This document shows, piece by piece, positions 19,713 through 52,070 of a DNA stretch of 64,000 bases (positions are counted from its first letter, which is position 1; the number at the start of each line of letters is the position of its first letter). The notes below the pieces were generated by a model, which saw only the letters and a program-made list of their open reading frames with translations, did no database searches and had not been told where the DNA came from. Position numbers and translations under genes: made by a program. This DNA is from Bacteroidota bacterium (GTDB lineage: Bacteria; Bacteroidota; Rhodothermia; Rhodothermales; UBA10348): assembly GCA_029262775.1 (NCBI GenBank), contig JAJCYR010000043.1, forward strand, positions 1 through 64,000, given 5' to 3'.

Positions 19713-22700
19713 GTGAGCCCTGCCATCAAAAAACCTGTCCGCCTGCGCGTCGCGCTGCTCGTTGTTTCCACAGTTCTTGTGACAGGACTCTTCTTCTGGG
19801 GCGTGCCCATGCGGCTTTCGCAGCCGGACGGCGGCGCGATGGGCCACCCTGGCCGCACCGCCGAGCCCAAATCGTCGAAAGCGGAAAAAGGACATCCGGA
19901 CCGCTTCCAGCAGATGCAGGCGCACATCCGGACGGCCGAAGGGGACGCGCAGCAGGGCTACGCGCCGTCCTACCGCATCGAGGCGCTTCGCGCGGCGCGG
20001 GCGGCGCGCAAAGGCGCCGCCGCGGCGCTACCATGGGAGGAGAGGGGCCCCTCGAACGTGGGCGGTCGAACGCGGGCCATCGTGGTGGACGCGCGCGATG
20101 CATCGGGCGACACGTGGCTGGCAGGCAGCGTGGGGGGTGGCATCTGGCGAACGACAACGGCGGGACAAAACTGGGAGCCGCTCACAGACGACTGGCCGAC
20201 GCTCTCCATTTCATCGCTCGTGCAGGCGCCGTCCAATCCCGATGTGATCTATGCTGGCACAGGAGAAGGCTTTTTCAATGTTGACGCCATCATTGGGACG
20301 GGGATCTTCAAGTCGGTAGATGGCGGCCTCACGTGGTCGCAGCTTACGGCGACCTTTGGCCTTGCTGATTTCAATTTCGTGAACCGGCTTATTGTCGATC
20401 CGGCCAACGAGAACGTCGTCGTGGCGGCGACCAATACCGGGCTCTTCCGCACGACCGATGGTGGCGTCTCGTTTGCGTTCGTTGCAGATGCCGGGGGGCG
20501 GGTCTCGCAGGTCGTGCACGAGCCCGGCAACTTCAGCATCCAGTATGCAGCGGTGACGGGCGTAGGCGTCTGGAAATCCGAAGACGGCGGGCAATCCTGG
20601 AGCGCCTCGAGCGACGGACTGTCGCTCGAGGCGGGGGCGCGTGTCGAGCTCGGCGTTTCGCCCGTCATGCCGTCCCGCGTCATTGCCTTGGCCGAAGTTA
20701 CCGAGGGCCCGGAAACCATTCACGTGTCGGACAACCGGGGAGCGCTCTGGGGAACACTCTCGCAGTCTTCCACGACGGATATTGCGCGCGATCAGGGCTG
20801 GTACGACATGGCCGTCACGCCGCACCCGTTCGACGAGAACATCGCGTTTGTGGGGGGCGTGAACATGCACCGCGTCACGCTCAGCGGGGAGGGCACGTTT
20901 TTCAGCGCGGACGTGGAGGAGGACGGCACAGGCGCCTTTTTGACCAAGGTCAACTTCGGCGGCGAGTTCTGGCAGGGGGGAATGCGGCTCGGGACGGCCG
21001 ACGATGAGGCCGTGATTGCCGCTGAAGACCTGGTGTCGGCCGAAATCCGTTTCGGTCCGGGTCGGTCGCAGAAGGCGCACCGCTTCACGCCGCCCGACGG
21101 GCCGGGCATACCGTTTTCAACGTATCCGTTCGCTGACTACGTGGACGTGCCCTTCGAGGTCTGGGACACGCAAAACAATCGACAGCTGCACGTGTCCTTC
21201 CGCGACCGCCTGGACGACGGGGCCTTCAACCTCATACCACGGGACGACAGCAATCTGGGTCGTGAATACATCCTGATTCACGCCAAAACATATACCCCAT
21301 CCGCGCCCGACCCGCAGATTTCGGCCAGCGGCGGTCTGGTAAACGGCCTCATGTATTTCATCTGGCCCATGCTCGAGGACGAGGTGGAGTGGACGCCCGA
21401 GAGCCTGCCCGTCTCCACACTGCGCTTTACGCTTACCTCCGGCACGGCGCCCGCTGCGTTCAGCGAAACACAGATCGGCGCGGCCGTACACGTCGACCAT
21501 CACATCCTCCTGCCACACATCACGGATGCGGACGCAGGACAGTTCGAGCTCATTTCAGGCAACGACGGCGGCGTCTGGCACTCGCCCGATGGCGGTATTT
21601 CCTGGAACGAACGCAGCCGCTTCTACAATACAAGCCAGTTCTACGGCGTGGACAAGAAGCCGGGTGCCCCGATCTATATAGGTGGCTTGCAGGACAATGG
21701 GACGTTCCGATCGTTTGCGCCGTTTATGGGCAATGTGCCGGGATGGACGCCTGCCATCGGGGGCGATGGGTTTGACGCCCTTTGGCACCAGGAGAATAAC
21801 ACCTGGCTGATGGGCGGCTTCCAGTTCAACGGCTTCCAGCGCTCGCTCGACGGCGGCGTCAACTGGTCGTCGGCCACGAACGGGCTTGCGGACACGGGCG
21901 AGAGCCCGAATGCGCCGTTCATCAATTCGCTCGAGCGGAATGCCTTCAATTCGGATATCATTTTTACGCTCGGCGGATCGGGCGTCTGGAAAAGCACGAA
22001 TTTCGGGGCAAACTGGCAACTGAAACCCATTCCGACATCCGCGTGGGGCTTCGGGGCGTCATCGCGCGGCGTCGTCAGGCCGTCGCTCGCCGCCACAGAT
22101 GTGGTCTGGGCCGGCTACGAGATGGATCCGTTCGACAACGACAACGGAGACGTTCTCGGTCAAATTCATGTCTCAATCGATGGCGGCGAAACGTTCTCGG
22201 CTACGACCCCTTCGCCGCTTTCGCCATCGCCCATATCGGGGCTGGCCACACACCCTGCGGACGCGGCCACAGCGTATGTCCTGTTTTCCGCAGCGGGACG
22301 GGCCAAAATATTGCGCACCAGGGATTTGGGGCAGACGTGGGAGGATATTTCGGGTTTTGAAGAGGGTTCCTCCGGCGTTCTCAGCGCACGCGGCTTTCCT
22401 GACGTTGCGGTGTACGACCTGCTCGTCATCCCGGATTTCCCCCATATCCTGTGGGCCGGAACTGAAGTCGGACTCTTCGTCAGCGAAGACGACGGTGCGT
22501 CGTGGCAGCTCTCCGACAGCGGGCTGCCTTCTGTCTCCATTTGGCGCATGAAGGTGCTCGATAACGAAATCGTGATGGCCACCCACGGCCGCGGCGTGTG
22601 GGTTGTGCCCGTGGGCGCGGTGACGCCGCTCACAACCGACGTGGCCACGGGCGACGACGTGCTACCGCACCGGCTGGCCCTGACCGGCGTCTACCCCAAT

Positions 22701-22937
22701 CCGCTGGGTGCCGAGGCCACGATCACATTCGAACTACCGGCTGCCGCACACGTGCGCCTGGAGGCACTCGATCTCGTGGGCCGCCGCGTGGCACTCGTTG
22801 AGGACGCGGTTCGGAGTGCCGGCCGCCACGACGTGCGCTGGCAGGCCGGGCCACTCGCGGCAGGAACGTACTTCATCCGCCTCACAACACCCACGGGCAG
22901 CGACACGCGCACGGTGGTAAAGGCAGGTCAGCAGTAA
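19713..22937 (+). CDS. secreted Asp-box (BNR/VPS10-like) propeller protein with T9SS sorting domain
   Basis: This 1074-residue protein is probably exported through the type IX system. It begins with a membrane-spanning or signal segment (about 13-32). A beta-propeller follows, with at least six Asp-box units such as SVDGGLTW, SEDGGQSW, SPDGGISW and SLDGGVNW. This is the sialidase/VPS10-like fold used for carbohydrate or surface interactions. The last ~85 residues form a type A sorting domain (GVYPNPLGAEATI to AGTYFIRLTT). The start is a GTG with AGGA eight bases upstream. No catalytic residues could be assigned, so it may be a binding protein or a glycosidase-like enzyme. Confidence 0.82.
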   Translation: MSPAIKKPVRLRVALLVVSTVLVTGLFFWGVPMRLSQPDGGAMGHPGRTAEPKSSKAEKGHPDRFQQMQAHIRTAEGDAQQGYAPSYRIEALRAARAARKGAAAALPWEERGPSNVGGRTRAIVVDARDASGDTWLAGSVGGGIWRTTTAGQNWEPLTDDWPTLSISSLVQAPSNPDVIYAGTGEGFFNVDAIIGTGIFKSVDGGLTWSQLTATFGLADFNFVNRLIVDPANENVVVAATNTGLFRTTDGGVSFAFVADAGGRVSQVVHEPGNFSIQYAAVTGVGVWKSEDGGQSWSASSDGLSLEAGARVELGVSPVMPSRVIALAEVTEGPETIHVSDNRGALWGTLSQSSTTDIARDQGWYDMAVTPHPFDENIAFVGGVNMHRVTLSGEGTFFSADVEEDGTGAFLTKVNFGGEFWQGGMRLGTADDEAVIAAEDLVSAEIRFGPGRSQKAHRFTPPDGPGIPFSTYPFADYVDVPFEVWDTQNNRQLHVSFRDRLDDGAFNLIPRDDSNLGREYILIHAKTYTPSAPDPQISASGGLVNGLMYFIWPMLEDEVEWTPESLPVSTLRFTLTSGTAPAAFSETQIGAAVHVDHHILLPHITDADAGQFELISGNDGGVWHSPDGGISWNERSRFYNTSQFYGVDKKPGAPIYIGGLQDNGTFRSFAPFMGNVPGWTPAIGGDGFDALWHQENNTWLMGGFQFNGFQRSLDGGVNWSSATNGLADTGESPNAPFINSLERNAFNSDIIFTLGGSGVWKSTNFGANWQLKPIPTSAWGFGASSRGVVRPSLAATDVVWAGYEMDPFDNDNGDVLGQIHVSIDGGETFSATTPSPLSPSPISGLATHPADAATAYVLFSAAGRAKILRTRDLGQTWEDISGFEEGSSGVLSARGFPDVAVYDLLVIPDFPHILWAGTEVGLFVSEDDGASWQLSDSGLPSVSIWRMKVLDNEIVMATHGRGVWVVPVGAVTPLTTDVATGDDVLPHRLALTGVYPNPLGAEATITFELPAAAHVRLEALDLVGRRVALVEDAVRSAGRHDVRWQAGPLAAGTYFIRLTTPTGSDTRTVVKAGQQ

Positions 22938-22959: not shown

Positions 22960-23067
22960 CGCGGGCTGTAGGAACGCGCGCCGGCGCATCGCAAAAAATG
23001 GATTTCCGGACGTACTCTCCATGCGGACGAACCGCCGCTTATTCCTCGTCCACGATTTTCTGTGATC

Positions 23068-25023
23068 ATGTCCTTTTCCCGAGTCGACGCCAGCGCTGCC
23101 CGCCACGGGCGCGTACGCTGGACGCTCTTTTTTGCAGGTGTGCTCGCCATACATGCACTCCTGCCGCGCACGGTAGACGCGCGGCAGGCGAACGTGCGCG
23201 TCGTATACCAGGTGGAGGAGGTCCGAAGTGGCCGGTTCACGGCCAACGTATTCATGACCAACGTGACGCCCGCTCCCATTGCGTCGTGGTCGCTGGCATT
23301 CGAGTTTCCATCGCCCATTGACCAGATGGACAACGTTACATGGACACAGACCGGCGGACTCTTCCGCGTTGAGGGCGCCGGATGGACGCACCGGATAGAG
23401 CCCGGTGAGGTCGCGTGGTTCACCATTCATGGCGTTGCAAGCGGGCCGCTGGCGCCACGACCAGCATCGTGCGCGTTCAACGGCGCCGCCTGTACGATCG
23501 AGAACGCAGATGAGCCCGATGTGGCCGAAACCGACCTCTCGCAGCTGCGCATTGCGGCCTGGATTGCCGAGGAGGATCAGACGACGTACACAGGGCATGT
23601 TTTCATCCGCAATCCGACGGAAGTGGATCTGGAGCCCTGGCGCATGACGTTCTCCACGTCGTCGCTCATTACGGGTATGGACGGGGTGAACTGGACGCGG
23701 AGCGGATCGTCCTACGAGGTCAGGGGTACGGGCGCTACGAACGCCATTCGCGGCCAGGATTTCGTGTTTTTCACGTTCTCGGGCGTGCATTCGGGCACGG
23801 CGCAGCTTCCCACATCGTGCCAGATCAACGGCGTGGCATGCACGTTTGTCGAGCCCGACGAGCTCATTGAAACGCCGCGCATGAACCTCTTTTTCAAGGT
23901 AGAAAAAATCACAGGGTCTATTTTCGAGGGGTTCATTGAGCTCATAAACCCGTCGGCGCAGGATCTTTCGTCCTGGACGCTGCGCTTCAACCTGGAGGAT
24001 CGGATCACGTTCGTCGGCGGCGATGTGTCATGGTCGCGTGCGGGCGATCTGTATACGCTGCACGGCATCAACGGCAAACGACGTGTACGCGGTGAGGGGT
24101 CGGTGTTTTTTCCCATTGCCGGCACCTTCGAGGACGACATTGAGCCGCCGAGCGACTGCACGGTCAACGGGGTCGTCTGTCTGATCGAGGCTGAGGGCAC
24201 GACCGTGCAGCCCGATGAGACGGACCCGGGGACGGGCGGTGGTGATACTGGAGGAGGCGATACCGGGGGTGGCGGTGGCGGCGATACGGGGGGCGGCGAT
24301 ACCGGCGGAGGTGACACGGGCGGAGGCGATACAGGGGGCGGTGATACCGGAGGTGCATGCACCGATGGCGTCGAGCCGACGAATCAACTCCCGGATATCG
24401 ATTTCCGTTTTCTCAGCGTTACTTCGTCCCAATACGTTGCGCTCGTTCGTATTACGAACAATACGAGCGGGTTTATCCGAGGCTGGAGCCTGCAGTTTTC
24501 GCTCATTGAAAACATGACCGTAGGGCGGCATTGGGAGAGCGTCTTTACGCAAAACCCCGACGGCTCCTACCTGGTCACGAACATCGAGAGCAACGCCTGC
24601 ATCCCGGCGGGCGAGAACATTACGTTCGGGTTCGACGGGAGCCACGACGGCACGTTTGCCGAACCTCTCGGATGCGCCTTTGACAGCCGGTCGTGCACAT
24701 TCCTGCGGATGGTGCAGGTTTCCAACGAGTCTGACAGGACGAATGAGCTCCCGAGTGGCCTGGAATTGGGATCACCCTATCCGAATCCGTTTCACAGCGA
24801 AACGCGACTCGACCTTGCGCTCGGTGCCACAAGCCACGTGCGCGCTACCCTCTGGGACGTCTCCGGACGCCTCGTGCGCGTTCTGCACGACGGCATACTG
24901 GCGGCCGGAAATGGTCACGCACTGCGCGTCGACGCCGGATCGCTCAGCCCCGGACTCTACCTCGTGCGTATTGAGGACGGACGAGGGCACGCTGAAACCC
25001 GAAAAATTCTGCTTGGGCGCTGA
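23068..25023 (+). CDS. secreted protein with four CBM2-like modules and T9SS sorting domain
   Basis: This 651-residue exported protein has a signal segment (about 18-39). It then has three similar modules at about 43-144, 160-260 and 271-373, a GGGDT-repeat linker (389-429), a fourth module at about 443-546, and a C-terminal type IX sorting domain. Each module ends with a C-x6-C pair around an NG-like turn (CAFNGAAC, CQINGVAC, CTVNGVVC, CAFDSRSC) and has the sxWsL/F and W-x-R patterns of family-2 carbohydrate-binding modules. No enzyme domain is present, so it looks like a polysaccharide adhesin or scaffold. ATG 23068 is preferred over the GTG at 23062. CBM2 assignment is by pattern and needs a profile search. 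Confidence 0.72.
   Translation: MSFSRVDASAARHGRVRWTLFFAGVLAIHALLPRTVDARQANVRVVYQVEEVRSGRFTANVFMTNVTPAPIASWSLAFEFPSPIDQMDNVTWTQTGGLFRVEGAGWTHRIEPGEVAWFTIHGVASGPLAPRPASCAFNGAACTIENADEPDVAETDLSQLRIAAWIAEEDQTTYTGHVFIRNPTEVDLEPWRMTFSTSSLITGMDGVNWTRSGSSYEVRGTGATNAIRGQDFVFFTFSGVHSGTAQLPTSCQINGVACTFVEPDELIETPRMNLFFKVEKITGSIFEGFIELINPSAQDLSSWTLRFNLEDRITFVGGDVSWSRAGDLYTLHGINGKRRVRGEGSVFFPIAGTFEDDIEPPSDCTVNGVVCLIEAEGTTVQPDETDPGTGGGDTGGGDTGGGGGGDTGGGDTGGGDTGGGDTGGGDTGGACTDGVEPTNQLPDIDFRFLSVTSSQYVALVRITNNTSGFIRGWSLQFSLIENMTVGRHWESVFTQNPDGSYLVTNIESNACIPAGENITFGFDGSHDGTFAEPLGCAFDSRSCTFLRMVQVSNESDRTNELPSGLELGSPYPNPFHSETRLDLALGATSHVRATLWDVSGRLVRVLHDGILAAGNGHALRVDAGSLSPGLYLVRIEDGRGHAETRKILLGR
24232..24354. repeat. 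degenerate 15-bp coding repeats (TGGGD linker)
   Basis: About eight 15-bp units encode TGGGD/GGGDT between the third and fourth CBM2-like modules. Third positions vary between units, which argues that the peptide, not the DNA, is under selection. It acts as a flexible spacer. Confidence 0.88.
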
Positions 25024-25080: not shown

Positions 25081-25701
25081 ATGAAAGAAGTTGTTTGCCA
25101 TTTATTGGTGTCCGTTGTGAACAGATCCCTGCGTATAGGCGTCCCTCTCGCCGCCGCAGCACTCCTCATGGTGCTCGTGGTAGGACCCGCTGCGTCCCAG
25201 TCGGCTCCGGGCAGCAGGGCCCTGGCCTCTGGATCACATACGGTTCGGATCGGCGTCGCACCCATCATGGTCATGGTGGTGAGTAGCCATCCCGTGCCCC
25301 TGATTCTTGACCGGAATATGATCGCAGGCCGCGCGGTGATAAGGGACGAGAGCACCTTCTATAACCTCACGTCCAACGTGGACAACGTCCTGATTGAGGT
25401 CAGCCTTGATCGCCCCATGCCGCCGGGCACGCGCCTGTCCGTCTCCGTTGCCAGTTCGCTCGGTCGAAGCAATGGGTGGGTCGATGTGACGCGCGGCGGA
25501 CGGGAGGTGGCCGCTGTCACAGGTATGTCGCGTGGGCTTGAAAATGGGCAAACGATTTCGTTTCAGCTCGAAGTGGCCAGCCACATTGGGGAGCTCGACC
25601 TCGAAGACCGCCTGCTGACGATTACGCTCACTGACCCCGTCTCGCGCCAGTCCCACACCGCGTACCAGAGCGTGCAGTTCGGCGTGCTGTCCCGGCTGTA
25701 A
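25081..25701 (+). CDS. secreted subunit-like protein of unknown function
   Basis: I do not recognise a named family. The 206-residue protein has an N-terminal hydrophobic segment (about 18-36) ending ASQS, so it is exported. The mature part is predicted beta-rich and ends with alternating strands (LLTITLTDPVSRQSH, then SVQFGVLSRL). This resembles the C-terminus of the subunit-like protein at 30605-31063 (HTVTFTLTEQ). That pattern is common in periplasmic-chaperone-dependent surface subunits. A 12-bp palindrome GGCTGATCAGCC lies at 25063-25074, six bases before the ATG. It converges on the sigma-factor gene next to the chaperone-usher-like operon, so a role in that system is plausible but inferred. 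Confidence 0.55.
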   Translation: MKEVVCHLLVSVVNRSLRIGVPLAAAALLMVLVVGPAASQSAPGSRALASGSHTVRIGVAPIMVMVVSSHPVPLILDRNMIAGRAVIRDESTFYNLTSNVDNVLIEVSLDRPMPPGTRLSVSVASSLGRSNGWVDVTRGGREVAAVTGMSRGLENGQTISFQLEVASHIGELDLEDRLLTITLTDPVSRQSHTAYQSVQFGVLSRL

Positions 25702-25748
25702 CACTGCTCGCGGCTGCGGGCGTGTGTCCGGCGGGAAGCACGCGCGGC

Positions 25749-26516
25749 TCAGGCCGCCTGGCGCAGCGACGACTCCACGGACGGCCGCATTTTTTCGAGG
25801 GCCCGGCGACGAACCTGTGACACCCGCGCCTCGGATATGCCATAGAAAGCCCCGATTTCGGCCTGCGTCAGCCCCTCGTTGAAGAACAGGTTCAGAATCT
25901 CCTGTTCACGCGCGCTCAGCCGGCTACCAATCTGGGCCAGGTGGCGCGCTACATCCGCCCACTCAGCATCATCGAACCGCTCCGTAGCCAACGGATTTTC
26001 CAGCAGGTCCAGAAATTCCGAATTTCCCGATTCCCCAACAGGAGCGTGCAGCGACAACCGCTCGCGCCAGCGCGCATCGAGCCGCGTTGTCTCAACGCGA
26101 GCCGGATCCACACACAGTGTCCGGGCCACATCCTGTACGGCCGGCCACTCACCATATTGCTGCGCCAGTTCATTTTCCACGCGGTACAGGGCGGCAACCG
26201 TGGCTCGGCGGCGACGGGGAAGGGGATCCATGCGCCGCAGGAGATCGATGATTTCTCCGCGGATACGCACCCACGAGAAGGTCACAAACCGGACCTCCAT
26301 GTCGGACCGATACTGATCAAGCGCCTGCAGCAGGCCCACAACGCCCGCCTGAAACAGGTCGTCGTGCGTCATGATATCGGCGCCGGGCGCCCTCAGTCCC
26401 GAGATGATATGCCTGATGACAGGCTCCATGGAGCTGACCACGCGATCGCGGCGTTTCTGTACAGGGTCCGCCAGCCAGGCACGGACGTACTCTTCGGTCT
26501 TGTAGGAAGTTGACAT
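25749..26516 (-). CDS. FliA/WhiG-family RNA polymerase sigma factor
   Basis: This 255-residue group-3 sigma factor has region 2 (DDLFQAGVVGLLQALDQYR to FVTFSWVRIRGEIIDLLRR), region 3 (ATVAALYRVENELAQQ) and region 4 (LSAREQEILNLFFNEGLTQAEIGAFYGISEARVSQVRRRALEKMR). This is the FliA/WhiG/SigB architecture. FliA controls flagellar late genes in many bacteria, yet no flagellar gene occurs in the window. It sits directly downstream of the usher-like operon on the same strand, with 192 bp between them containing a palindrome shared with the other end of the operon. It may direct transcription of that surface system. No anti-sigma gene is adjacent. Confidence 0.85.
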   Translation of the reverse strand: MSTSYKTEEYVRAWLADPVQKRRDRVVSSMEPVIRHIISGLRAPGADIMTHDDLFQAGVVGLLQALDQYRSDMEVRFVTFSWVRIRGEIIDLLRRMDPLPRRRRATVAALYRVENELAQQYGEWPAVQDVARTLCVDPARVETTRLDARWRERLSLHAPVGESGNSEFLDLLENPLATERFDDAEWADVARHLAQIGSRLSAREQEILNLFFNEGLTQAEIGAFYGISEARVSQVRRRALEKMRPSVESSLRQAA

Positions 26517-26631
26517 GGCGGCATTTTGTTGGGTTCGCTGCCTGTTGCCATGTCAATTCGGGTGCCGTTTGCGACCATGGGCGCCGTTTGGTCTTCTGGG
26601 GCCTTTTTCCGGCAGTCCGGGTCGGGTCAGC

Positions 26632-26647
26632 GTTTCGCCAACGAAAC
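26632..26647. promoter_or_regulatory. palindrome GTTTCG-N4-CGAAAC upstream of the sigma-factor gene
   Basis: GTTTCG (26632-26637) and CGAAAC (26642-26647) flank a 4-nt spacer, about 115 bp before the sigma-factor start. The identical half-sites recur at 31422-31437 at the other end of the operon. I found no third copy when reading the window. A shared operator for a dimeric regulator is the simplest reading. Confidence 0.5.
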
Positions 26648-26708
26648 ACTCGCGCTGCGCGGCCGCTACACGCGAACGCGGTACACAGGCACTACGGCGC
26701 CGTGTGCA

Positions 26709-29700
26709 CTACTGCTGCGAGTAGCGACGAATGGCCTCCCATTCTGCCTGTGAGAGTGGGCCTGCGGCGGGCAGGCACAAGCTGGCCCCAAGGGGAAGCA
26801 GGTCCGGCGAGCGGAGCACATCCCGGTTGGCGAGCCAGATCCGGATCCAGTGCCACTCGCTCGCATAATAACGGCGAGCGAGCGAAAAGAGCGTGTCGCC
26901 GTCCCTCACGCGGACCGTGTCCACGGCTTCTGTGGGCGCAACTTCTTCCGGACCTTTTTCCGGTCCGCCTGCCGGACCAGCGTCTTCAGCCGACACGCTT
27001 ACCGACACGCCTGCTCCCGGCGTAACGAACCGGATACGGCGTTCGGTGGGCTCGAGGTAAAACACGGCCTCGCCAACACCCCCCGGAATGAGCTCCACGG
27101 TCGCCGCGCCTGGCTCGGTACGATAATTTTCGGGTAGCGTCCTCTCCAAAACGAACACCTCCCAGCGCCCGGGCACAAGCGGCGGAAACTGAGCCCGACC
27201 ATCGGTATCGGTCAGGCGCCGAAACCGCACCTCGCCCGAGCGGGCTTCCACAACCAGCCCGGCCAGCGCTGCGCCGCGGAGGCCGCGCTCGAGCGCCGCA
27301 TCCAGAGCCGCTTCCTGCCCGCCGGGCAAAACCCGCGCCACGAGCCGCGCCGGCCGCACAATCCCGACGTCCACGGGGCCGCGCTGAACGGCATCAACTT
27401 CTACCGGAAACGGCACCGTCGGCATGCGATCGAGTCCAATGCTCTCCTGATCCAGCAGTACAAACCGCTCCTCGCCCGTGAGCACGAGCCTTGCCAGCCC
27501 CTCGCTGTTCGTTTCAGCCCGGACGCGATCTGCCACAAAGACCACTCCTTGCAGCGGCTCCCCCGTTTCCTCGTCGCGTACGCGGAAGGAGATGGTGGTC
27601 TCAGCGCCTGGCCCGGAAAACGGGGCCCGCACCGAAAACGGAATGCGATAGGCGAGGCTGAACGTTCCCGTGCGCACGTCCGATGAAAAATTCGTCTGCG
27701 ATCCGCGTGCACGCAGTTCAAGCTCGTGACTGGACCACATTTCGGCCGCGACGCGCGCATCAAACAGGGTGAATGTCTGCGACAGGGTACCGGACACCCG
27801 GCTCTGGAACGCCGAGGCCGACGCGCGGAGCCCCCGGCCCGCATCGAACGAAAACGTTGAGCCTACGGTTACGCGTTCTTGCCGGGTAGGGCTGAAAAAC
27901 GTGACCCCTTCCAGGTACGACGCCGTCAGACTCAGCGACCACGCACCCAGCACCTTGAAGGCGGAGCCGCGCACCGAGGAAAACGTGCCGTCGGCAAATG
28001 CGGTGTCATCAATCCTGCCGGTCTCTCCCGCCACATTGAGCCCGAACCCGCGCTGGTTGAAATTCAGGCGCAGCGTCACGCTTTCTTCCGATCGGTCGAG
28101 CCCGGTCTCGGCGACGCGGCGATCCTGGAACTGCCCGAGCAGCATGGCCTGCAGGCGACTTCGTCCAAAGGAAAACGACCCGCCGGCCCCCCCGCGGAAG
28201 AGCCGGTTTTCAAGAGCACGGTCCTCATTTCTGGATGCATCGAAAAAGCGGCGCTCCGCACGACCCAGCCCTTCGAGCCGGATCCAGTGATCTCCACGCA
28301 CGGCGAAACTTCCTCGCACCTGCTCCGAATTCTGGATGCCCCCCAGAAAGAATGGGTCGGCCGACTCGGCGTGCCCTGAGAACACGATCCAGGGAAACGA
28401 TCCCTGCGCGGATAGCTGCACCGCGCTTCCTTCTCCAATGTCGTAACGGCCGTGCGCCACCTCGGCCGCCAGTTCGGCGCCGTCGACGGGCAGCCACCGC
28501 GCGGCCACGGACCCGGCCTCGCCCGGCTCGAATTCCCCACGGGACAGCGCGCTCAGCTCAACGGCCAGCCTACGGTGTGGCCACAGGTGAACAAACCCAC
28601 CGGCGCGCTCCGTCTCCGGAAACACGTGACGCGTGCGCGATGCGAAGGCGGCGCCCTGCAGGCGCTCCCGGTCGTAGGAGAGTTCACTGCCAAAACCAAA
28701 GAACGACGTGTCGAGCAGATCCGACACCTGGAAATTCTGATCGCCCAGCCGTAGACCGACGCGTCGCCCCTCCACCGATGCCGCGTACTCGTCCCGCTCC
28801 CCGAAGGACGCCGTCGAACGAATGTCCGGCCCGCGCAGCCGGGCCGTATACACCTGGTCCCCGATCCGCGTGGCGGGAAGATCGAGTTCTGCCTGCGCGT
28901 CGGCCCGGCCGGACTCGGCCGTACCCCGCGCCGTGAACATGATGGGCAGGCGGCCTTCCTCGAGGCGCCTGGCCCGGCGCCGGACGGGCACAATCTGCGT
29001 CGTGAGCCGGGCTTCGCCGCCGGCCACCTCCGTGCCGGAGGCCGACGCGCTGACCCGCAGCACATGCGATATTTCATTGACCAGATCGTCGCGCGTGCGG
29101 GCCGTCACGAGAATTTCTGTGCGCGCCGACGGCACAAGATCGACCACGTCCGACGGCATGCGAATCTCGTAGCCGAGCGAGCTTTCCGCCTGAATCCGGA
29201 ATTCAGCCCTGTGGTTGCCCGTGTTTTCAATGGAAAACGTCGCCGTGATGGCCGCGCCCGCCCGGACCCGCGCGGGCGCCTCAACGAGCAAAAGTGCCAA
29301 CGACGTCCTCTCGGCGACCACAATTTCGGTTTCGGCCGACGCCAGCGTGCCCTCGTTCTGGTCCTTTGCAGGCTCGCCGTCCACACCTTCCCGACGCAGG
29401 CGAAACTCCACGCGCCAGGCGCCGGCTGTGGCCGTTGCCGGAATCTGGATCGATACGATCCGCGTGACAGGCTTTCCCGGTTCTGCCCGGATGACAGGCG
29501 GCGGAATCAGGATGCTCCAGCCGGGTGGCAGAACGGGATCGACCCGGAGAATCCTTCCGCCGGCCGATACCGCGCGAATGGGCAGGCTGATGACCGACCC
29601 GGGCGCCGCTTCCGCACGCACAGGCGCCGATACCGATACGTCCTGCGCAAGTGCGGTGCGCGGCGCCAGAAGGCATGAAAGGACAACAAACCACCCTACA

Positions 29701-29744
29701 CCAACCAGTAGGGCGGCCTGATCTGTGCCCCTCATTCCGATCAC
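26709..29744 (-). CDS. usher-like outer-membrane protein with NEW3-like N-terminus and C-terminal LysM domain
   Basis: This 1011-residue exported protein starts with a signal peptide (to about residue 34). Two Ig-like domains follow: about 40-135, NEW3-like with PPGWSIL and PGKPVTRIVSIQIP, and about 145-250. Then comes a long stretch of alternating strands (about 265-715, with GLRLGDQNFQVSDLL and many short amphipathic strands), read as an outer-membrane barrel. After it are two carboxypeptidase-regulatory-like Ig domains, and a LysM domain near the end (VRDGDTLFSLARRYY to LCLPA). It follows the chaperone-like gene by 2 nt. The operon order subunit-chaperone-usher suggests a divergent chaperone-usher secretion pore anchored to peptidoglycan by LysM. 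The usher assignment rests on architecture and context, not on recognised usher motifs. Confidence 0.6.
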   Translation of the reverse strand: MIGMRGTDQAALLVGVGWFVVLSCLLAPRTALAQDVSVSAPVRAEAAPGSVISLPIRAVSAGGRILRVDPVLPPGWSILIPPPVIRAEPGKPVTRIVSIQIPATATAGAWRVEFRLRREGVDGEPAKDQNEGTLASAETEIVVAERTSLALLLVEAPARVRAGAAITATFSIENTGNHRAEFRIQAESSLGYEIRMPSDVVDLVPSARTEILVTARTRDDLVNEISHVLRVSASASGTEVAGGEARLTTQIVPVRRRARRLEEGRLPIMFTARGTAESGRADAQAELDLPATRIGDQVYTARLRGPDIRSTASFGERDEYAASVEGRRVGLRLGDQNFQVSDLLDTSFFGFGSELSYDRERLQGAAFASRTRHVFPETERAGGFVHLWPHRRLAVELSALSRGEFEPGEAGSVAARWLPVDGAELAAEVAHGRYDIGEGSAVQLSAQGSFPWIVFSGHAESADPFFLGGIQNSEQVRGSFAVRGDHWIRLEGLGRAERRFFDASRNEDRALENRLFRGGAGGSFSFGRSRLQAMLLGQFQDRRVAETGLDRSEESVTLRLNFNQRGFGLNVAGETGRIDDTAFADGTFSSVRGSAFKVLGAWSLSLTASYLEGVTFFSPTRQERVTVGSTFSFDAGRGLRASASAFQSRVSGTLSQTFTLFDARVAAEMWSSHELELRARGSQTNFSSDVRTGTFSLAYRIPFSVRAPFSGPGAETTISFRVRDEETGEPLQGVVFVADRVRAETNSEGLARLVLTGEERFVLLDQESIGLDRMPTVPFPVEVDAVQRGPVDVGIVRPARLVARVLPGGQEAALDAALERGLRGAALAGLVVEARSGEVRFRRLTDTDGRAQFPPLVPGRWEVFVLERTLPENYRTEPGAATVELIPGGVGEAVFYLEPTERRIRFVTPGAGVSVSVSAEDAGPAGGPEKGPEEVAPTEAVDTVRVRDGDTLFSLARRYYASEWHWIRIWLANRDVLRSPDLLPLGASLCLPAAGPLSQAEWEAIRRYSQQ

Positions 29745-29746
29745 GG

Positions 29747-30601
29747 TCAGAGCGTCAATTCAAACTGCCCGCCAAAAACAGCGTCGCTGCCCGCATCGAC
29801 CACAAAAACGGCCTGATACGTCCCGGCAGGTACCCCGTCCAGCTCGATACGCTGCCGGGTGGAGGTATTGGGATAGAGTCGATACTGAACGCCAGGAAAC
29901 GGACCGTATTCCTGCCCCTCAGCATCAAAAAGGCGCATATATACATCGGGGCGCATCATGACCTGACCCACATTGAGTACATCGATCTGGAATACGGTGC
30001 GCCCGTCTTCGAGCGCCTGCAGACGGACATTTTCGAGCTCGACACCCGGTTCGGCGCTGGCCGAACTGACGTGCGTAGCCAGTTGTACACCGTAGCGCGT
30101 GACCTGACGAAAGCCGACTTCCCGGTCGCCGGGCGCGTCCTCGCCGAGTGTCGACTCGGCCGACTCGCGGTCAATGGCTTCCACCATGAGCATACTCCAC
30201 CAGGAGCCGGCACCGGCAGTGTCGGGTACGTTGATCTGGTAGGACACGGTCATGGATCCGCCCGGCGGCACGGTGGCCTGCTCGGGCGAAAAAGAGATCC
30301 AGGGCGCGTTCGAGCGCGCGGTGGTACCCGGGTCGTCGTAGGCATTCGTGCCATCGGCGAAAAACAAATAGTCGCGCTGGTAGATCCGGGCCTGCTGCAG
30401 TTCGTTCGTGTCGTTGGCGATCGTGACCGATCCGGTAAGCGTAGCGCCGGGCACGGTCTCCAGATCATGGGCCAGTTGGCCGCGCACGGTGATCTGCGCC
30501 GAGGCCGCGAAGGATCCCAAAAGGAGCGACAGGTAGAGCACCAGGCAGAACATCGGCCCCCATGCACGGACCCTCAAGCGGAAGAAACGGACAGGAAACA
30601 T
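29747..30601 (-). CDS. PapD-like periplasmic chaperone-type protein
   Basis: This 284-residue exported protein has a signal peptide (hydrophobic segment then ASAQ) and two beta-sandwich domains. The first has the layout of pilus chaperones: a tolerant N-terminal strand, IANDTNELQQARIYQRDY, then APWISFSPEQATVPPGGSMTVSYQINVP and a long strand region. The second (about 175-284) includes FQIDVLNVGQVMMRPDVYMRLFD. The aPwIsfsP-PG pattern also occurs in WxL-interacting proteins of Gram-positives, which share this fold. It lies between the subunit-like and usher-like genes with 2-3 nt gaps. A role in folding and delivering the subunit in the periplasm is inferred. Confidence 0.6.
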   Translation of the reverse strand: MFPVRFFRLRVRAWGPMFCLVLYLSLLLGSFAASAQITVRGQLAHDLETVPGATLTGSVTIANDTNELQQARIYQRDYLFFADGTNAYDDPGTTARSNAPWISFSPEQATVPPGGSMTVSYQINVPDTAGAGSWWSMLMVEAIDRESAESTLGEDAPGDREVGFRQVTRYGVQLATHVSSASAEPGVELENVRLQALEDGRTVFQIDVLNVGQVMMRPDVYMRLFDAEGQEYGPFPGVQYRLYPNTSTRQRIELDGVPAGTYQAVFVVDAGSDAVFGGQFELTL

Positions 30602-30604
30602 GGG

Positions 30605-31063
30605 TTACTGCTCGGTAAGGGTGAACGTCACTGTATGCTGGTCACTCGCGCCGGTTTCGCTCGACTCGTCGGTAATGGCCGCCTCTGCAATGTAGCGGAT
30701 GTTGGCAAAGCCTGCTTTGCCCTTCCTGATATTCACGATCAGATCCGTGTCGTTCATGCCATCACGAAGCGCTACGCGGCCCGCTGGTTTACCGCGCTTC
30801 ACGTTCACGGCCTCGGCGTAGAGCCGGTACGTCTGTCCGGGAGCAAACGTCGAGACGGTAACCTTGGAGCGCGATCGGGTCTCGTCCCACAGGATTTGCG
30901 TTGAGTCGTCCGTGTCCTGGTACGTCTCGCCGCCATACGGCGAAGGGGACACGCTGAGCTGCACGGCTGCGCTGCCGAGCATCATCAGGCGCTGGGCCGA
31001 CGCGGGCGTGGCCAGAGCGCCAAAAAGCGCAGCAAGGAAGAGGATATGTAGGAGTCGTTGCAT
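30605..31063 (-). CDS. pilin/subunit-like secreted protein
   Basis: This 152-residue exported protein has a signal peptide (LLHILFLAALFGALATPASA) and a mature part predicted as a single beta-sandwich. It ends GASDQHTVTFTLTEQ, like many chaperone-dependent surface subunits. ATG 31063 is preferred over an in-frame start at 31099 because the signal peptide starts there and TTACAGGT with an AGGT core lies just upstream. It is the first gene of the tight three-gene operon with the PapD-like and usher-like genes (3 nt to the next start). The major structural subunit of the proposed appendage is the likely role; no known pilin family was recognised. Confidence 0.58.
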   Translation of the reverse strand: MQRLLHILFLAALFGALATPASAQRLMMLGSAAVQLSVSPSPYGGETYQDTDDSTQILWDETRSRSKVTVSTFAPGQTYRLYAEAVNVKRGKPAGRVALRDGMNDTDLIVNIRKGKAGFANIRYIAEAAITDESSETGASDQHTVTFTLTEQ

Positions 31064-31095
31064 CACACCTGTAATAACGGCAAATACCGTGCCTG

Positions 31096-31299
31096 TCACA
31101 TTTCCCAGGATGGGAGCTCGTCCCTGGGCTCCGCTATTCTGTAGACGGGACAGGCGCCACAGGCAACCTTGTCAAGCCGAATCCAGTCGGGGCGCTGCCG
31201 AACCGGGCGAACCGATACGAGTCGGTGCATGCGCGCCACATGTTCGTTGTCGGGCGCGATGAGAAAAAGAGGTTTCCAGGCGGTTTGGACAGATGTCAT
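31096..31299 (-). CDS. possible small cysteine-containing protein at the head of the usher-like operon
   Basis: This is a 67-residue open frame upstream of the subunit gene on the same strand. It ends 33 nt before the preferred subunit start and overlaps the longer alternative start. It begins MTSVQTAWKPLFLIAPDNE and has a CGACPVYR motif (C-x2-C) and an acidic end. Codon third positions in the part examined are GC-rich, like real genes here. No family was recognised. It may be a small cytoplasmic protein or a chance frame. Confidence 0.35.
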   Translation of the reverse strand: MTSVQTAWKPLFLIAPDNEHVARMHRLVSVRPVRQRPDWIRLDKVACGACPVYRIAEPRDELPSWEM

Positions 31300-31420
31300 G
31301 GTGGTAGCGGTTGGTGTCTGCGCAGCAATGGGCAAACCCCGTACCGTGCCCTGGCTCCGGCTTTGCATCGACCAGAATCAGCCTGGCAGGGCATATGGAC
31401 ACGCGAACGGTCCGTCATAG

Positions 31421-31438
31421 TGTTTCGTTTTCGAAACA
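31421..31438. promoter_or_regulatory. palindrome TGTTTCG-N4-CGAAACA upstream of the receiver-kinase gene
   Basis: A 7-4-7 perfect inverted repeat (31421-31427, 31432-31438) ends three bases before the -35 element of a candidate promoter. It shares the half-site GTTTCG with the palindrome at 26632-26647. It lies between the divergent usher-like operon and the receiver-kinase gene and could serve either. Confidence 0.5.
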
Positions 31439-31441
31439 GTC

Positions 31442-31471
31442 TTGGGGCTGAGTCGACACGGTGCGTATACT
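31442..31471 (+). promoter_or_regulatory. sigma-70-like promoter for the receiver-kinase gene
   Basis: TTGGGG (31442-31447) and TATACT (31466-31471) are separated by 18 bp. They lie about 57 bp before the GTG start at 31528. The -10 is near consensus and the -35 is weak. The palindrome at 31421-31438 sits around -48 relative to the expected start point, a position suited to an activator. The rest of 31300-31527 shows nothing further. Confidence 0.4.
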
Positions 31472-31527
31472 TGGGGCGTGCGGCCCGTGCCCGCGTTCCG
31501 GCTCGTCTACACATACCGGTTTTTTTC

Positions 31528-32637
31528 GTGACCCCGCTTCAAGCGCCTCCTGCCACTGCCCTCATCCTCGTTGTTGACGACAGCAAGCTGAACCGGGATC
31601 TGCTGTGCGAATACCTGGATGCGCTCGGCTATGCGTCCGAATCCTGCCAGAACGGGACCGCGGCCGTGGCGCGTCTCGAGGAGCGTTCGTTCGATGCGGT
31701 GCTTCTCGATATTGATATGCCCGAGCTCGATGGGTACGGCGTGCTTGAGTACATGAAAACCCGCGATGCCCTGCAGTTCATTCCGGTCATCATGATTTCG
31801 GGCCGGGATGATGTGCCGAGCATTGCCCGCTGTCTGGAACTGGGCGCAACCGATTTCCTGTCAAAACCATTCAACCCGAAAATCCTGGAGGCGCGGCTCT
31901 CCGGGAGCCTCGAGAAAAAGCGGCTTCGCGAAGCCGAGCAGGAACTGATCCGAATGCGCGACGCACTCACCCACATGATTGTGCACGACCTGGGCAACCC
32001 GTTGTCGGTCATTCAGATGAACCTCCAGATGATGCGCATGCTCGGAGAGGGGGACACCGAGCGGCTGGGGCATTTGGACCGTGCGGCCTCCGCCATGGGG
32101 ACCATGATCGAGTCCATGCTTGACCTCTCGAAACTGGAGTCGGGCACCATGCCGGTCCGTCTGGCCGAGGTCGACATGACCGCCCTTCTCGAGCAGGTAG
32201 AAGCGGAATACGCGCCGTTTGCGTCGGATCGTGACCTGGTACTCGGCGTCGAGGTGGAAAGCGGCCTCGTGGCGATCGCCGACGTGCTGCTCCTCGGACG
32301 CGTACTCGCCAATTTGCTGACCAATGCGTTCAAATACGCGCGCCCGGCGACACGCATCCTGATTTCCGCCCGGCGCGATAATGGCGATGTCCGCCTCATT
32401 GTTGAAGACGACGGCCCGGGCATACCCGATGAGCTGCACGAACGGATTTTTGACCGGTACTACCAGGTGGAATCGGCCGAGTCGGGCGTTAGGGCAGGCG
32501 TAGGACTGGGGCTGGCTTTCTGCCGGCTCGCCATGAATGCCATGGACGGCGCCATTCGCGCCGAGTCGGCCGCGCCGCACGGGACGTGCTTTGTGGTTAC
32601 GCTAATCGACGCTAATAATCGACGCCGAATTTCTTGA
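31528..32637 (+). CDS. response-regulator receiver domain fused to a histidine kinase
   Basis: This 369-residue cytoplasmic signalling protein has an N-terminal receiver domain (phosphorylation site Asp61 in LLDIDMPE). A short coiled linker, a HisKA domain (His153 in IVHDLGNPLSV) and an HATPase domain follow (NLLTNAFKY, EDDGPGIPDE, GVGLGLAF). It has no membrane segment, so it probably receives phosphate from another kinase or senses a cytoplasmic signal. The GTG at 31528 is preferred; in-frame codons reach back to 31225 but give a non-conserved leader crossing the promoter. Its 3' end overlaps the converging NtrC-like gene by 26 bp. Confidence 0.87.
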   Translation: MTPLQAPPATALILVVDDSKLNRDLLCEYLDALGYASESCQNGTAAVARLEERSFDAVLLDIDMPELDGYGVLEYMKTRDALQFIPVIMISGRDDVPSIARCLELGATDFLSKPFNPKILEARLSGSLEKKRLREAEQELIRMRDALTHMIVHDLGNPLSVIQMNLQMMRMLGEGDTERLGHLDRAASAMGTMIESMLDLSKLESGTMPVRLAEVDMTALLEQVEAEYAPFASDRDLVLGVEVESGLVAIADVLLLGRVLANLLTNAFKYARPATRILISARRDNGDVRLIVEDDGPGIPDELHERIFDRYYQVESAESGVRAGVGLGLAFCRLAMNAMDGAIRAESAAPHGTCFVVTLIDANNRRRIS

Positions 32638-33982
32638 GCTTGGCGTAGATGTTCGAGCGCTGCAGGTCTATTTCCTCGGAGAGCCGGGATATGTTGCCCT
32701 CGCATTGAGACAGCTTGCGGCGAAGGAAGGCCGCCTCGGCGGCATCCCGGAAGTCGGCAATTTTGGGGTGCCGCTCGGCCAGGTAGGCAATGGAGTCCTG
32801 CGGCGCCTTGCCCGGATTGGCGAAGAGTTCGACATCGTCGACGCCGATCTCGTCCTCCTCGCTGAGCACGATCAGGCGCTCTACAGCATTATGGAGCTCG
32901 CGCACGTTCCCCCGCCAGGGAAATGTGCGCAGCAGCTGCAGCGCCTCGTCCGAAAAGTACTTACCCGGCATGCCGTTGCGCACACTGAGCTGCCCGCAGA
33001 AGTGCTTTGCCAGAAGGTCAATGTCCTCAATCCGGTCGCGCAGCGGAGGGGATTCAATACGGATCACGGCCAGGCGGTGAAAAAGGTCATCCCGGAATGC
33101 GCCGTTTTCAATGGCTTCTTCCAGGACTTTATTGGTGGCCGCCACAACGCGCACATCGACCGAGATGGCCTTGTCGCCTCCCACGCGCCGCACCTGATTC
33201 TCCTGCAGTACGCGCAGCACCTTGGCTTGGGCGGTTGGCGACATGTCTCCGACTTCATCGAGAAAGAGCGTGCCGCCGTCGGCCTGCTCGAAGGACCCGA
33301 TGTGCTGCTTGTGGGCACCCGTAAATGCGCCCTTTTCGTGTCCAAAGAGCTCGCTTTCAATCAGCTCACCCGGAATGGCAGCACAGTTGAGCGCCACGAA
33401 CGGCCCCGATCTGCGCTCGGACAGGTGGTGGACCCACTGGGCAATGAGCTCCTTGCCGCTGCCCGCTTCGCCCGTTACCAGCACCCGGGCCTCGGACGGG
33501 GCGACTTTGCCGAGCAGCTTCTTGATGCGTTTCATGGCCGCACTCTCACCGAGGAGCGGTGCAATGGAGGTATCTATTTTTTCGAGGCGCGCCTTCATGC
33601 GCGTGTGTTCACGCTGCAGCCTGTCTGCACTGAGCGCATTGCGGACCGTCACCAGAAAGCGCTGCAGGTTGGGCGGCTTGGGCACAAAATCGTACGCACC
33701 CTCCTTGATGGCCTCCACGGCCAGCTCGATGGTGGCATTCGCCGTGAGCATTACGAAAGGAAGCTCCGGCCAGCGCGATTTGGCGGCCCTGAGCAGCTCC
33801 ATGCCGTTCATCTCGGGCATCATCATGTCCGAAAGAACCAGGTCGAAGGCGTCCTCCTCGATCTTTTTAAGCCCTTCGGCCCCGTTCCCGGCTTCGACCA
33901 CCTCATACTTCTGCATGGTCATCAGCTCCTTCAGCGTGCGGCGTATGGAGGGCTCGTCATCGACGATGAGAAGACGTGGCAT
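32612..33982 (-). CDS. sigma-54-dependent response regulator, NtrC type
   Basis: This 456-residue transcription activator has a receiver domain (Asp52 in LSDMMMPEMNG) and a sigma-54 AAA+ domain. The AAA+ domain carries Walker A GEAGSGKE, the sigma-54-contacting loop GAFTGA, Walker B GGTLFLDEVGDM and the R-finger region. A C-terminal Fis-type helix-turn-helix (NISRLSEEIDLQRSNIYAKLKKFG) follows. It needs RpoN and binds enhancer-like sites. The ATG at 33982 begins the receiver fold; the longer frame to 34594 is discarded. It lies between a receiver-kinase and a hybrid sensor, one of which probably phosphorylates it. Confidence 0.92.
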   Translation of the reverse strand: MPRLLIVDDEPSIRRTLKELMTMQKYEVVEAGNGAEGLKKIEEDAFDLVLSDMMMPEMNGMELLRAAKSRWPELPFVMLTANATIELAVEAIKEGAYDFVPKPPNLQRFLVTVRNALSADRLQREHTRMKARLEKIDTSIAPLLGESAAMKRIKKLLGKVAPSEARVLVTGEAGSGKELIAQWVHHLSERRSGPFVALNCAAIPGELIESELFGHEKGAFTGAHKQHIGSFEQADGGTLFLDEVGDMSPTAQAKVLRVLQENQVRRVGGDKAISVDVRVVAATNKVLEEAIENGAFRDDLFHRLAVIRIESPPLRDRIEDIDLLAKHFCGQLSVRNGMPGKYFSDEALQLLRTFPWRGNVRELHNAVERLIVLSEEDEIGVDDVELFANPGKAPQDSIAYLAERHPKIADFRDAAEAAFLRRKLSQCEGNISRLSEEIDLQRSNIYAKLKKFGVDY

Positions 33983-34075
33983 GGCACTCTCGGCGGGTAG
34001 GTTCACGGACCAACAGGATTCGGGGAGCAATATACTGTGCTGTGGCGTGTACCTTTCCGTTTTCAACGCGGGGGC

Positions 34076-37000: not shown

Positions 37001-38245
37001 CTGGATATTGAGCCGCGCGTGTGCGACCTCCGCCAGATCGTGCACGACATGGGGGTCGTCTTTCATCAGAAAGCGGAAGAGAAGGGTATTCAGATTCGCA
37101 CGGAAGTCGACGAGGATGTGCCGCGCATGGTCACCCTCGATGACCACCGACTGGGACAGGTACTGACCAACCTCGTTGGCAACGCCGTCAAATTCACGTC
37201 CAACGGGCACGTGGTGCTTCGCTGCCGAGTGGATGCGCCTCCGGCCAGCGGGTTGACCACGCTGTTGATAGAAGTCGAAGACACAGGAATCGGTATCGCA
37301 GACGACCAGTTGGATACGGTTTTCGGCGCCTTCGACCAGGCGGCTGGCCAGACAGCGGCCGAGTTTGGCGGAACGGGTCTGGGGCTTGCCATTTCGAAAC
37401 GCCTCGTGGAGCTCATGGGGGGGACCCTTTCCGTCGGCAGCGAACTCGGCAAGGGATCCACGTTCCGGGTTGTACTTGAAGACGTTCCCATTGGCCAGGA
37501 TTCGGACCCGGCCAGCGCTGCAACCGGCCATGTCGAGAGTGGCGAGCGTCCCTTCCTGCCGGCACGTATTCTGGTCGCCGATGACAACGCGCGCAACCGC
37601 GAGCTTATGCGCGCCATGCTCGAGCCGCTGGGGCTGCAGGTCGAGGAGGTGACCAACGGCGTCGGTGTCCTCGAAAAACTCGCGGAAAGCCCTCCCGACC
37701 TGCTTCTGCTCGACGCCAAGATGCCGGTCATGAACGGCCTTGAAACCGCACAGCGCATCCGTTCGGCGCGCGCGGTCGCTGATTTGCCGATTGTCGTGGT
37801 CAGCGCCGCCGTCATGAGTGATGACGTGGCCGAGCTGCGACGCCTCGCTGACGCCTACCTGCCCAAACCCATTTCACGCGATGAGCTCATCCGGACGCTG
37901 GCCCAATTCCTGGCACAGGACGTGACGCCAGCGGCCGCGCCGCATCCACAGAAACACGCCGCAGCAACGCTGACCTCGAACGAGGTGGCCATCATGGACG
38001 CCCACCTCCGGGACGAACTGAGCGCACTTGCGCCGGCCTGGGAGGCCGCCAACGAGCGACTCGTCATCGGAGACATCGAATCTCTCGCGCATTCCATGGA
38101 GGAACTGGCCCGGCGGCACGAGCATGCCGATCTTGCGCGCATGGCACAACGTCTTTTCGATGCGGCGGCTTCCTTTGATCCCGACCACATGGAGCGTGTG
38201 CTCGGAGCGGTTCGCCCGCTTGTTCAACCGGCAGAAAACATATGA
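34076..38245 (+). CDS. hybrid two-component sensor with periplasmic beta-propeller
   Basis: This 1389-residue one-piece sensor has a signal sequence (to about AQ at 29), then two-component-propeller repeats ([36 protein letters not shown]) and a Y_Y_Y-type domain. A transmembrane helix ([19 protein letters not shown]) and a long coiled coil follow. Next come HisKA (His919 in [15 protein letters not shown]), HATPase ([22 protein letters not shown]) and a receiver (Asp1213 in [11 protein letters not shown]). The C-terminal ~95 residues are helical and HPt-like, but a phospho-accepting His is uncertain. Such sensors often detect polysaccharide fragments in Bacteroidota. A TATACT hexamer lies at 34031-34036. 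The gene overlaps the next by ATGA. Confidence 0.88.
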
Positions 38246-51805: not shown

Positions 51806-51880
51806 CGGGGTGTAGCGCAGCCCGGTTAGCGCATCTGCTTTGGGAGCAGAGGGTCGCAGGTTCGAATCCTGCCACCCCGA
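51806..51880 (+). tRNA. tRNA-Pro (anticodon UGG)
   Basis: The acceptor stem CGGGGTG/CACCCCG is perfect. The anticodon loop TTTGGGA places UGG at 34-36, and the T-loop TTCGAATC is standard. CCA is not encoded. Confidence 0.95.
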
Positions 51881-51910
51881 CACATATTTTCCGGCGGGTC
51901 CGACATTCCT

Positions 51911-51987
51911 GCGCCCGTAGCTCAACCGGATAGAGCAGCGGTCTTCTAAACCGCAGGTTGCAGGTTCGAGTCCTGCCGGGCGCGCCA
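51911..51987 (+). tRNA. tRNA-Arg (anticodon UCU)
   Basis: The acceptor stem GCGCCCG/CGGGCGC is perfect. The anticodon loop CTTCTAA gives UCU, the T-loop is TTCGAGTC, and CCA is encoded. Confidence 0.95.
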
Positions 51988-51996
51988 CAAAAACCT

Positions 51997-52070
51997 GGTG
52001 ACGTGGCCGAGTGGCTAGGCAAGGGTCTGCAAAACCCTGTACGGCGGTTCGAATCCGCCCGTCACCTCCA
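51997..52070 (+). tRNA. tRNA-Cys (anticodon GCA)
   Basis: The acceptor stem GGTGACG/CGTCACC is perfect. The anticodon loop CTGCAAA gives GCA, and CCA is encoded. An intrinsic terminator follows. Confidence 0.95.

Follow-up and report, generated by a model that had tools for sequence, protein, structure and literature searches.

The window analyzed here, the whole 64,000-nucleotide stretch of contig JAJCYR010000043.1 from a Bacteroidota bacterium (assembly GCA_029262775.1), contains a gene cluster that, in our judgment, probably represents an unrecognised and widespread branch, or an analogue, of the chaperone-usher pathway, which would work by donor-strand exchange and, in the manner of the chaperone-usher pili of E. 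coli, build a thin surface fibre with one secreted subunit (P3) at its tip and another (P4) as its polymer. The cluster comprises an operon on the minus strand, P3-P2-P1, and two genes, P4 and P5, that adjoin it just beyond P1. These genes are as follows:

30605..31099, minus strand: P3, small secreted subunit that lacks an N-terminal donor extension and is predicted to be the tip or the first subunit
29747..30601, minus strand: P2, periplasmic chaperone with two immunoglobulin (Ig) domains and a WxLIP/PapD-like fold
26709..29744, minus strand: P1, usher-like outer-membrane barrel protein of 1011 residues, from AlphaFold2 and Foldseek
25081..25701, plus strand: P4, secreted subunit with an N-terminal donor-strand-like extension; predicted polymerising subunit
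25749..26516, minus strand: P5, sigma factor resembling FliA/WhiG and probably a local regulator

A preliminary description of the window had placed a divergent chaperone-usher-type surface system here, an interpretation that is partly supported by the results below. All five open reading frames (ORFs) sit at the positions it gave, and the tight operon was verified, with a gap of 3 nucleotides (nt) between P3 and P2 (CCC, between TAA and ATG) and of 2 nt between P2 and P1. The source is a 3.3-Mb draft genome, about 95% complete, whose nearest named relatives are metagenome-assembled genomes (MAGs) of Rhodothermales/Bacteroidota.

Recurrence and distribution of the cluster

Homologues of P1 were identified in 26 of 60 related genomes, and the gene order subunit-chaperone-usher that had been noticed in the window is present there and recurs in about 20 Rhodothermales loci, with some genomes carrying two copies. 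When the chaperone alignment was scanned against one genome per species, 112 relatives were obtained, of which 80 were kept as independent loci. A barrel gene lay downstream of the chaperone gene and on the same strand in 78 of these 80 loci (with an ORF gap of at most 150 nt in 72), and at least one subunit gene lay upstream of it in 76, the other four loci ending at a contig edge directly before the chaperone. As many as eight subunit paralogues preceded a single chaperone gene. Two findings had been named beforehand as refuting the preliminary description, a predicted structure without a transmembrane barrel and a lack of recurring linkage in other genomes, and neither was obtained: a barrel is predicted, as set out below, and the linkage of the cluster proved to be widespread and far beyond chance.

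Based on the assembly labels, together with Deinococcus deserti, the family is present in at least 17 phyla: Bacteroidota, Rhodothermota, Ignavibacteriota, Pseudomonadota (Chromatiaceae), Thermodesulfobacteriota and other 'Deltaproteobacteria', Armatimonadota, Spirochaetota, Planctomycetota, Bacillota (Orenia and a Clostridiales MAG), Verrucomicrobiota, Zixiibacteriota, Rifleibacteriota, Krumholzibacteriota, Acidobacteriota, Synergistota, Gemmatimonadota and KSB1, with Deinococcota added via D. deserti. Single phylum assignments may err because many members are MAGs, which does not apply to the cultured Thiohalocapsa marina, Thiococcus pfennigii, Orenia metallireducens and D. deserti. When a quick tree was made from the chaperones, the labels grouped by phylum more than in shuffles; the five gammaproteobacterial rows formed one supported group and several other phyla were split. 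Candidatus Ozemobacter (L133), a very long branch in this tree, was the sole locus with pieces of a barrel gene on the opposite strand directly after the chaperone. The preliminary description had suggested an undescribed system in this phylum; its proteins are recognised by no standard family model, and the system is not confined to one phylum. No earlier description of the cluster was found in the open-access literature, subscription papers and preprints being outside the search.

For the genes on plasmid 2 of D. deserti, the RefSeq labels are 'FimB/Mfa2 family fimbrial subunit' in the case of the chaperone (L150:6953-7723) and 'carboxypeptidase regulatory-like domain-containing protein' in that of the usher (L150:7725-10244). 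These labels look misleading since both proteins match the present family, and they show how the cluster could be missed. The name given to the chaperone, along with one weak match to PF08842 (E 0.065) among the 64 chaperone members, might be taken to indicate a type V (FimA/Mfa1) pilus system. We regard this as very improbable given that there was no supported FimA/Mfa1 match in Pfam or NCBIfam, that no lipobox cysteine is visible in P3 or P4, and that the barrel partner is constant in the present family, whereas type V pili are not known to have such a partner.

Predicted structure of P1

The AlphaFold2 model of P1, which was built with 72 homologues, was confident (predicted local distance difference test score, pLDDT, 86.9), and the transmembrane barrel that it predicts bears out the earlier view of the 1011-residue protein as barrel-like. 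At the N-terminus of the model, residues 35-120 and 130-255 (approximate limits) each form an Ig-like domain, and after residue 900 a disordered linker is followed by the LysM region (942-1010). The remaining parts of the protein were located as follows:

27627..28952, minus strand: beta-barrel of P1, with 26 strands between residues 265 and 706, loops of 13 residues at most and no plug
27045..27602, minus strand: P1 residues 715-900, a pair of small beta-domains on the C-terminal side of the barrel, at the position of the usher domains CTD1/CTD2
26769..26921, minus strand: LysM domain of P1 (residues 942-992; PF01476, E 2.9e-5, above the curated cut-off)

The barrels of FimD and PapC, by comparison, have 24 strands. 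A plug had also been expected in P1; since the longest inter-strand loop is of 13 residues, there is no plug insertion in any loop of the model.

Supporting an usher-like fold was the Foldseek search with the P1 model, in which the top PDB match was FimD (3rfz, E 1.5e-12), with more FimD and PapC entries below it. When the barrel was compared by VIA, the Z scores were 22.1 for MtrB, 18.5 for FimD and 18.2 for PapC, and several ushers aligned over residues 266-898 of P1, which correspond to the barrel and the C-terminal domains (FimD span 138-833). A profile of P1 set against seven K-12 ushers aligned the C-terminal domains only, and weakly (E 1e-4, prob 56). Single-protein searches in Pfam, NCBIfam and PDB returned only LysM, carboxypeptidase-regulatory and NEW3-like scraps, and Rhodothermales-only profiles brought no improvement over these when run against PDB. 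It had been remarked that the proteins show no classic FimD/PapC sequence signature, and this is the case for P1, in which there was no Pfam Usher (PF00577) match; the same model matched in none of the 60 Rhodothermales genomes, with the E. coli control positive. The C-terminal peptidoglycan-binding domain differs across lineages, being LysM in Rhodothermales and SPOR in Ignavibacteria and Desulfobacteraceae, and from its sequence the LysM domain of P1 is predicted to be a peptidoglycan anchor.

MtrB was the best-aligned single barrel in the VIA comparison, and the barrel of P1 could on that score be read as an MtrB-like sheath of an electron-transfer conduit. We find this scarcely credible in view of the fact that the constant partners of P1 are a chaperone and subunits, that inspection of the loci, by eye only, revealed no gene for a multihaem cytochrome, and that P1 has Ig, C-terminal and LysM domains besides its barrel.

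The chaperone P2 and its kinship with WxLIP

P2 was modelled as an in-silico read-through fusion, P3-P2, with the TAA entered as a residue; this is a modelling device and no read-through is claimed. The alignment for the fusion included loci with the subunit and chaperone genes in one frame, and the resulting model had a pLDDT of 88.5. When the P2 half was compared by VIA, WxLIP of E. faecium was best (Z 17.3 and 16.1), followed by a long list of mostly chaperone-usher chaperones, including CfaA (13.2), FimC (12.6) and CsuC (12.2). In agreement with this ranking, a profile of 64 chaperones had two significant matches in PDB, both of them WxLIP (EfmWxLIP1, E 6.5e-4 and 7.5e-4), and in hhalign the chaperone family aligned over both Ig domains, in 221 columns, with eight Lactobacillales WxLIPs (prob 95.6, E 1.1e-8). 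The corresponding alignment with seven K-12 PapD-like chaperones reached prob 42, and the control, PapD-like chaperones against WxLIP, prob 0.6. On this evidence from profiles and models, the closest known relative of P2 is WxLIP (DUF916/DUF3324), ahead of PapD. The designation of P2 as a PapD-like chaperone was thus correct as to the fold and the 'aPwIsfsP...PPG' motif, which spans residues 99-115, and is revised as to the nearest relative. WxLIP, a protein of the cell surface, was previously known from Gram-positive bacteria.

The predicted donor strand of P2 was assigned as follows:

30074..30100, minus strand: predicted G1 donor strand of P2 (residues 168-176)

This strand is hydrophobic at positions 168, 170, 172 and 174, with G or A at 171 and invariant R169 and Q173, and the hydrophobic alternation is kept in 61 of the 64 chaperone homologues. 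As far as sequence patterns can indicate it, donor-strand complementation in the chaperone-subunit complex is supported. A comparable arrangement has been predicted for WxLIP, in which a hairpin strand is inserted into WxL and completes its beta-sandwich (PMC10599100); such an insertion amounts to donor-strand complementation, though not under that name. The words 'chaperone' and 'usher' are absent from that paper, and the open-access literature yielded no publication for the WxLIP structures of 2026 (9i25 and 9i1y).

A stretch 92.5% identical at the protein level to E. faecium WxLIP was encountered in a plasmid record labelled Klebsiella pneumoniae (CP069367.1, 101788-102283); it likely reflects contamination or misassembly.

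The subunits P3 and P4

Among 148 candidate subunits, 137 form one connected family, of which P3 is a member, and nine a second family. The real start of P3 is likely to be the internal ATG at 31063, as its relatives begin MKR, and its core starts directly after the predicted signal-peptide site. The P3 family (17 aligned relatives) has a conserved C-terminal strand with the consensus HTVTYTLxAQ.

Two classes of subunit were apparent from the N-termini. An extension of 14 residues with alternating hydrophobic residues precedes the core in 93 of the 96 subunits further upstream, and it is absent in 15 of the 16 that lie directly beside the chaperone. P4 carries the extension and P3 is without it:

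25234..25275, plus strand: N-terminal extension of P4, SHTVRIGVAPIMVM, with an alternating hydrophobic V-I-V core; aligned to the corresponding columns of 93 upstream subunits from other loci

Within the extension, hydrophobic residues occupy three alternating positions in 95-100% of rows and the positions between them in 2-4%; strict alternation was found in 73 of 95 extensions versus at most five in shuffles, in a post hoc test of those three positions. Alternating N-terminal residues are a published mark of the donor strands in Csu pilins (PMC4654587). Judged by its sequence, then, P4 and not P3 bears the features predicted for a polymerising subunit.

The subunit family had no match in Pfam or NCBIfam. 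Two candidate relationships were considered and rejected. A profile run against 10 WxL proteins aligned the signal peptides only, and Pfam WxL was not listed; profile matches of the subunits in PDB with the coat protein of a phage, whose E of 0.001 arose from tandem copies, two in number and each at 2.5, were judged to be due to chance.

The second subunit family (DISVSGSWSETI...) lies directly before the chaperone in several non-Bacteroidota loci and has no N-terminal extension (for example L118:9492-9980, L106:1963-2424 and L120:9506-9961). In a paralogous second locus of the same family, a secreted protein of 1000-1400 residues with a type IX sorting tail is encoded upstream of the subunits (L040:1358-4423, L042:2607-5684 and L047:13036-17190); it is possible that this protein is a tip adhesin or partner.

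Proposed assembly mechanism and alternatives

We propose that P3 and P4 would reach the periplasm via the Sec pathway, where the G1 strand of P2, through residues 168, 170, 172 and 174, would complete the unfinished Ig fold of each subunit and P2 would also hold the subunit's C-terminal strand. P1 would form a wide 26-strand barrel in the outer membrane, tethered to peptidoglycan by its LysM domain, with its N- and C-terminal beta-domains handling the chaperone-subunit complexes. Being without the extension, P3 could not donate a strand, so that it would leave first and become the tip of the fibre. The N-terminal extension of each incoming P4 would then displace the chaperone strand, and P4 would polymerise and exit through the barrel.

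Several points weigh against this proposal. The P1 barrel has no plug domain in the AlphaFold2 model and, taken alone, fits MtrB better than FimD (VIA Z 22.1 versus 18.5), and at its N-terminus P1 has Ig domains of NEW3-like type and not the FimD N-terminal domain. There was no PF00577 match in P1 or in nine diverse homologues, and the families listed for the 64 chaperone members included no PapD model (PF00345/PF02753). When parity was tested over all 14 positions of the extension, the result did not exceed that of shuffles, owing to a break of phase after position 8. Modelling of the chaperone-subunit pair consisted of the fold of fused P3-P2, the subunit half of which was hardly probed by fold search. 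Finally, the fibre is inferred, the system being known here from genes and predicted models.

Another function would be that P1 exports the subunits brought by the chaperone one at a time, either in soluble form or attached to the surface, and that no fibre is made. The locus in the window has two subunit genes only, and its barrel, without a plug, is as much MtrB-like as usher-like, both of which fit such an exporter. We nevertheless consider it unlikely, since the presence of up to eight subunit paralogues upstream of one chaperone, the existence of extended and non-extended subunit classes and the usher-like C-terminal domains all point to ordered polymerisation.

The homology of P2 to WxLIP, which has been described as binding WxL and stabilising it on peptidoglycan (PMC10599100), raises another alternative, namely that P2 is not a recycled chaperone but stays bound to the subunit for good and keeps it stable on peptidoglycan, as proposed for WxL/WxLIP, with P1 merely providing an anchor via LysM, as here, or via SPOR, as in other lineages. 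This alternative appears distinctly improbable: P2 stops after its second Ig domain, without the C-terminal transmembrane helix reported for WxLIP, the subunits are not detectably related to WxL domains, and anchoring needs no 26-strand barrel.

P5 and the genomic neighbourhood

P5 matched TIGR02479 (E 3.9e-44, below that model's cut-off) and the Pfam sigma-70 r2, r3 and r4 models. No flagellin (PF00669) match was found in the source genome, about 95% complete as noted, with 4 of 14 control genomes positive; P5 is therefore probably not a flagellar sigma factor. The preliminary description had credited the system with its own sigma factor. P5 does lie beside the operon, but P4 and P5 do so only in the six closest genomes (L031-L036), and P5 is a local partner and not a general part of the system. 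From its position we would guess that P5 controls the operon.

Upstream of the operon are genes for a response regulator-histidine kinase (31225-32637, plus strand), an NtrC-type sigma-54 activator (32612-33982, minus strand) and a hybrid two-component propeller kinase (34037-38245, plus strand). The first two recur beside the operon in several relatives, and it is possible that these kinase and activator genes are regulators. On the other side of the cluster, the gene at 23062-25023 (plus strand) encodes a secreted protein that ends in a type IX secretion sorting tail and has four domains of the cellulose-binding type CBM2, and a protein of similar size and start adjoins P4 in the nearest genomes. 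Next to the CBM2 protein, and part of one synteny block with it, is a Sortilin/BNR-repeat protein (19713-22937, plus strand), which also has a type IX sorting tail. A group of three tRNA genes is located at 51806-52070 (plus strand): Pro(TGG), Arg(TCT) and Cys(GCA).

Significance and comparison with known systems

In a published overview (PMC4654587), the phyla given for chaperone-usher pili are Proteobacteria, Cyanobacteria and Deinococcus-Thermus. A chaperone-usher-like system missed by the Pfam Usher and PapD models would now extend to at least 17 phyla, among them environmental lineages with few studied adhesion organelles. The kinship of P2 also links two fields that were unconnected in the papers found, those of pilus chaperones and of Gram-positive WxL/WxLIP proteins, and makes it possible to test directly how WxL systems originated and whether an usher without a plug works by donor-strand exchange. 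We tentatively raise the possibility, on balance somewhat doubtful, that the cluster is an ancient chaperone-usher branch of many diderm phyla and that the WxL/WxLIP proteins of monoderm Firmicutes are its remnant or a sister line which lost the outer membrane and the usher. If this were true, pilus assembly and the Gram-positive WxL surface proteins would share one donor-strand machinery.

Of the systems known to us from the comparisons made here, MtrB is like the present family in being the closest barrel to P1 by VIA, and it differs in that no cytochrome partners were recognised in the loci read by eye and that P1 has the additional Ig, C-terminal and LysM domains. Type V pili (FimA/Mfa1, with the anchor FimB/Mfa2) are likewise found in Bacteroidota, and one relative of the family is annotated FimB/Mfa2; however, there was no supported family match, and the present cluster has a barrel and a chaperone. 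The WxL/WxLIP (DUF916-DUF3324) clusters of Lactobacillales share with it a chaperone that is homologous over both Ig domains, a small WxL gene that is often directly upstream of WxLIP, and a predicted strand insertion into the partner. In contrast to the present family, the eight such clusters viewed had no usher, WxLIP has a C-terminal transmembrane helix that P2 lacks, and WxL domains are not detectably related to the present subunits.

The chaperone-usher pathway (FimC/FimD, PapD/PapC and the archaic Csu system) is matched in the gene order subunit-chaperone-usher, in a barrel with C-terminal beta-domains whose predicted model matches the fold of FimD and PapC, in a two-Ig-domain chaperone with an alternating hydrophobic G1 strand and, as judged from sequence, in subunits that have an N-terminal donor-type extension alongside one that does not. 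It is not matched in that the present family has no Pfam Usher or PapD match, the subunits match no known pilin family, P2 is closer to WxLIP and P1, unlike FimD and PapC, is predicted to have 26 strands, no plug, two NEW3-like N-terminal Ig domains and a LysM tail, replaced by SPOR in other lineages. The family thus departs from the chaperone-usher pathway in the Usher and PapD models and in the plug, and agrees with it in fold, gene order and strand features.

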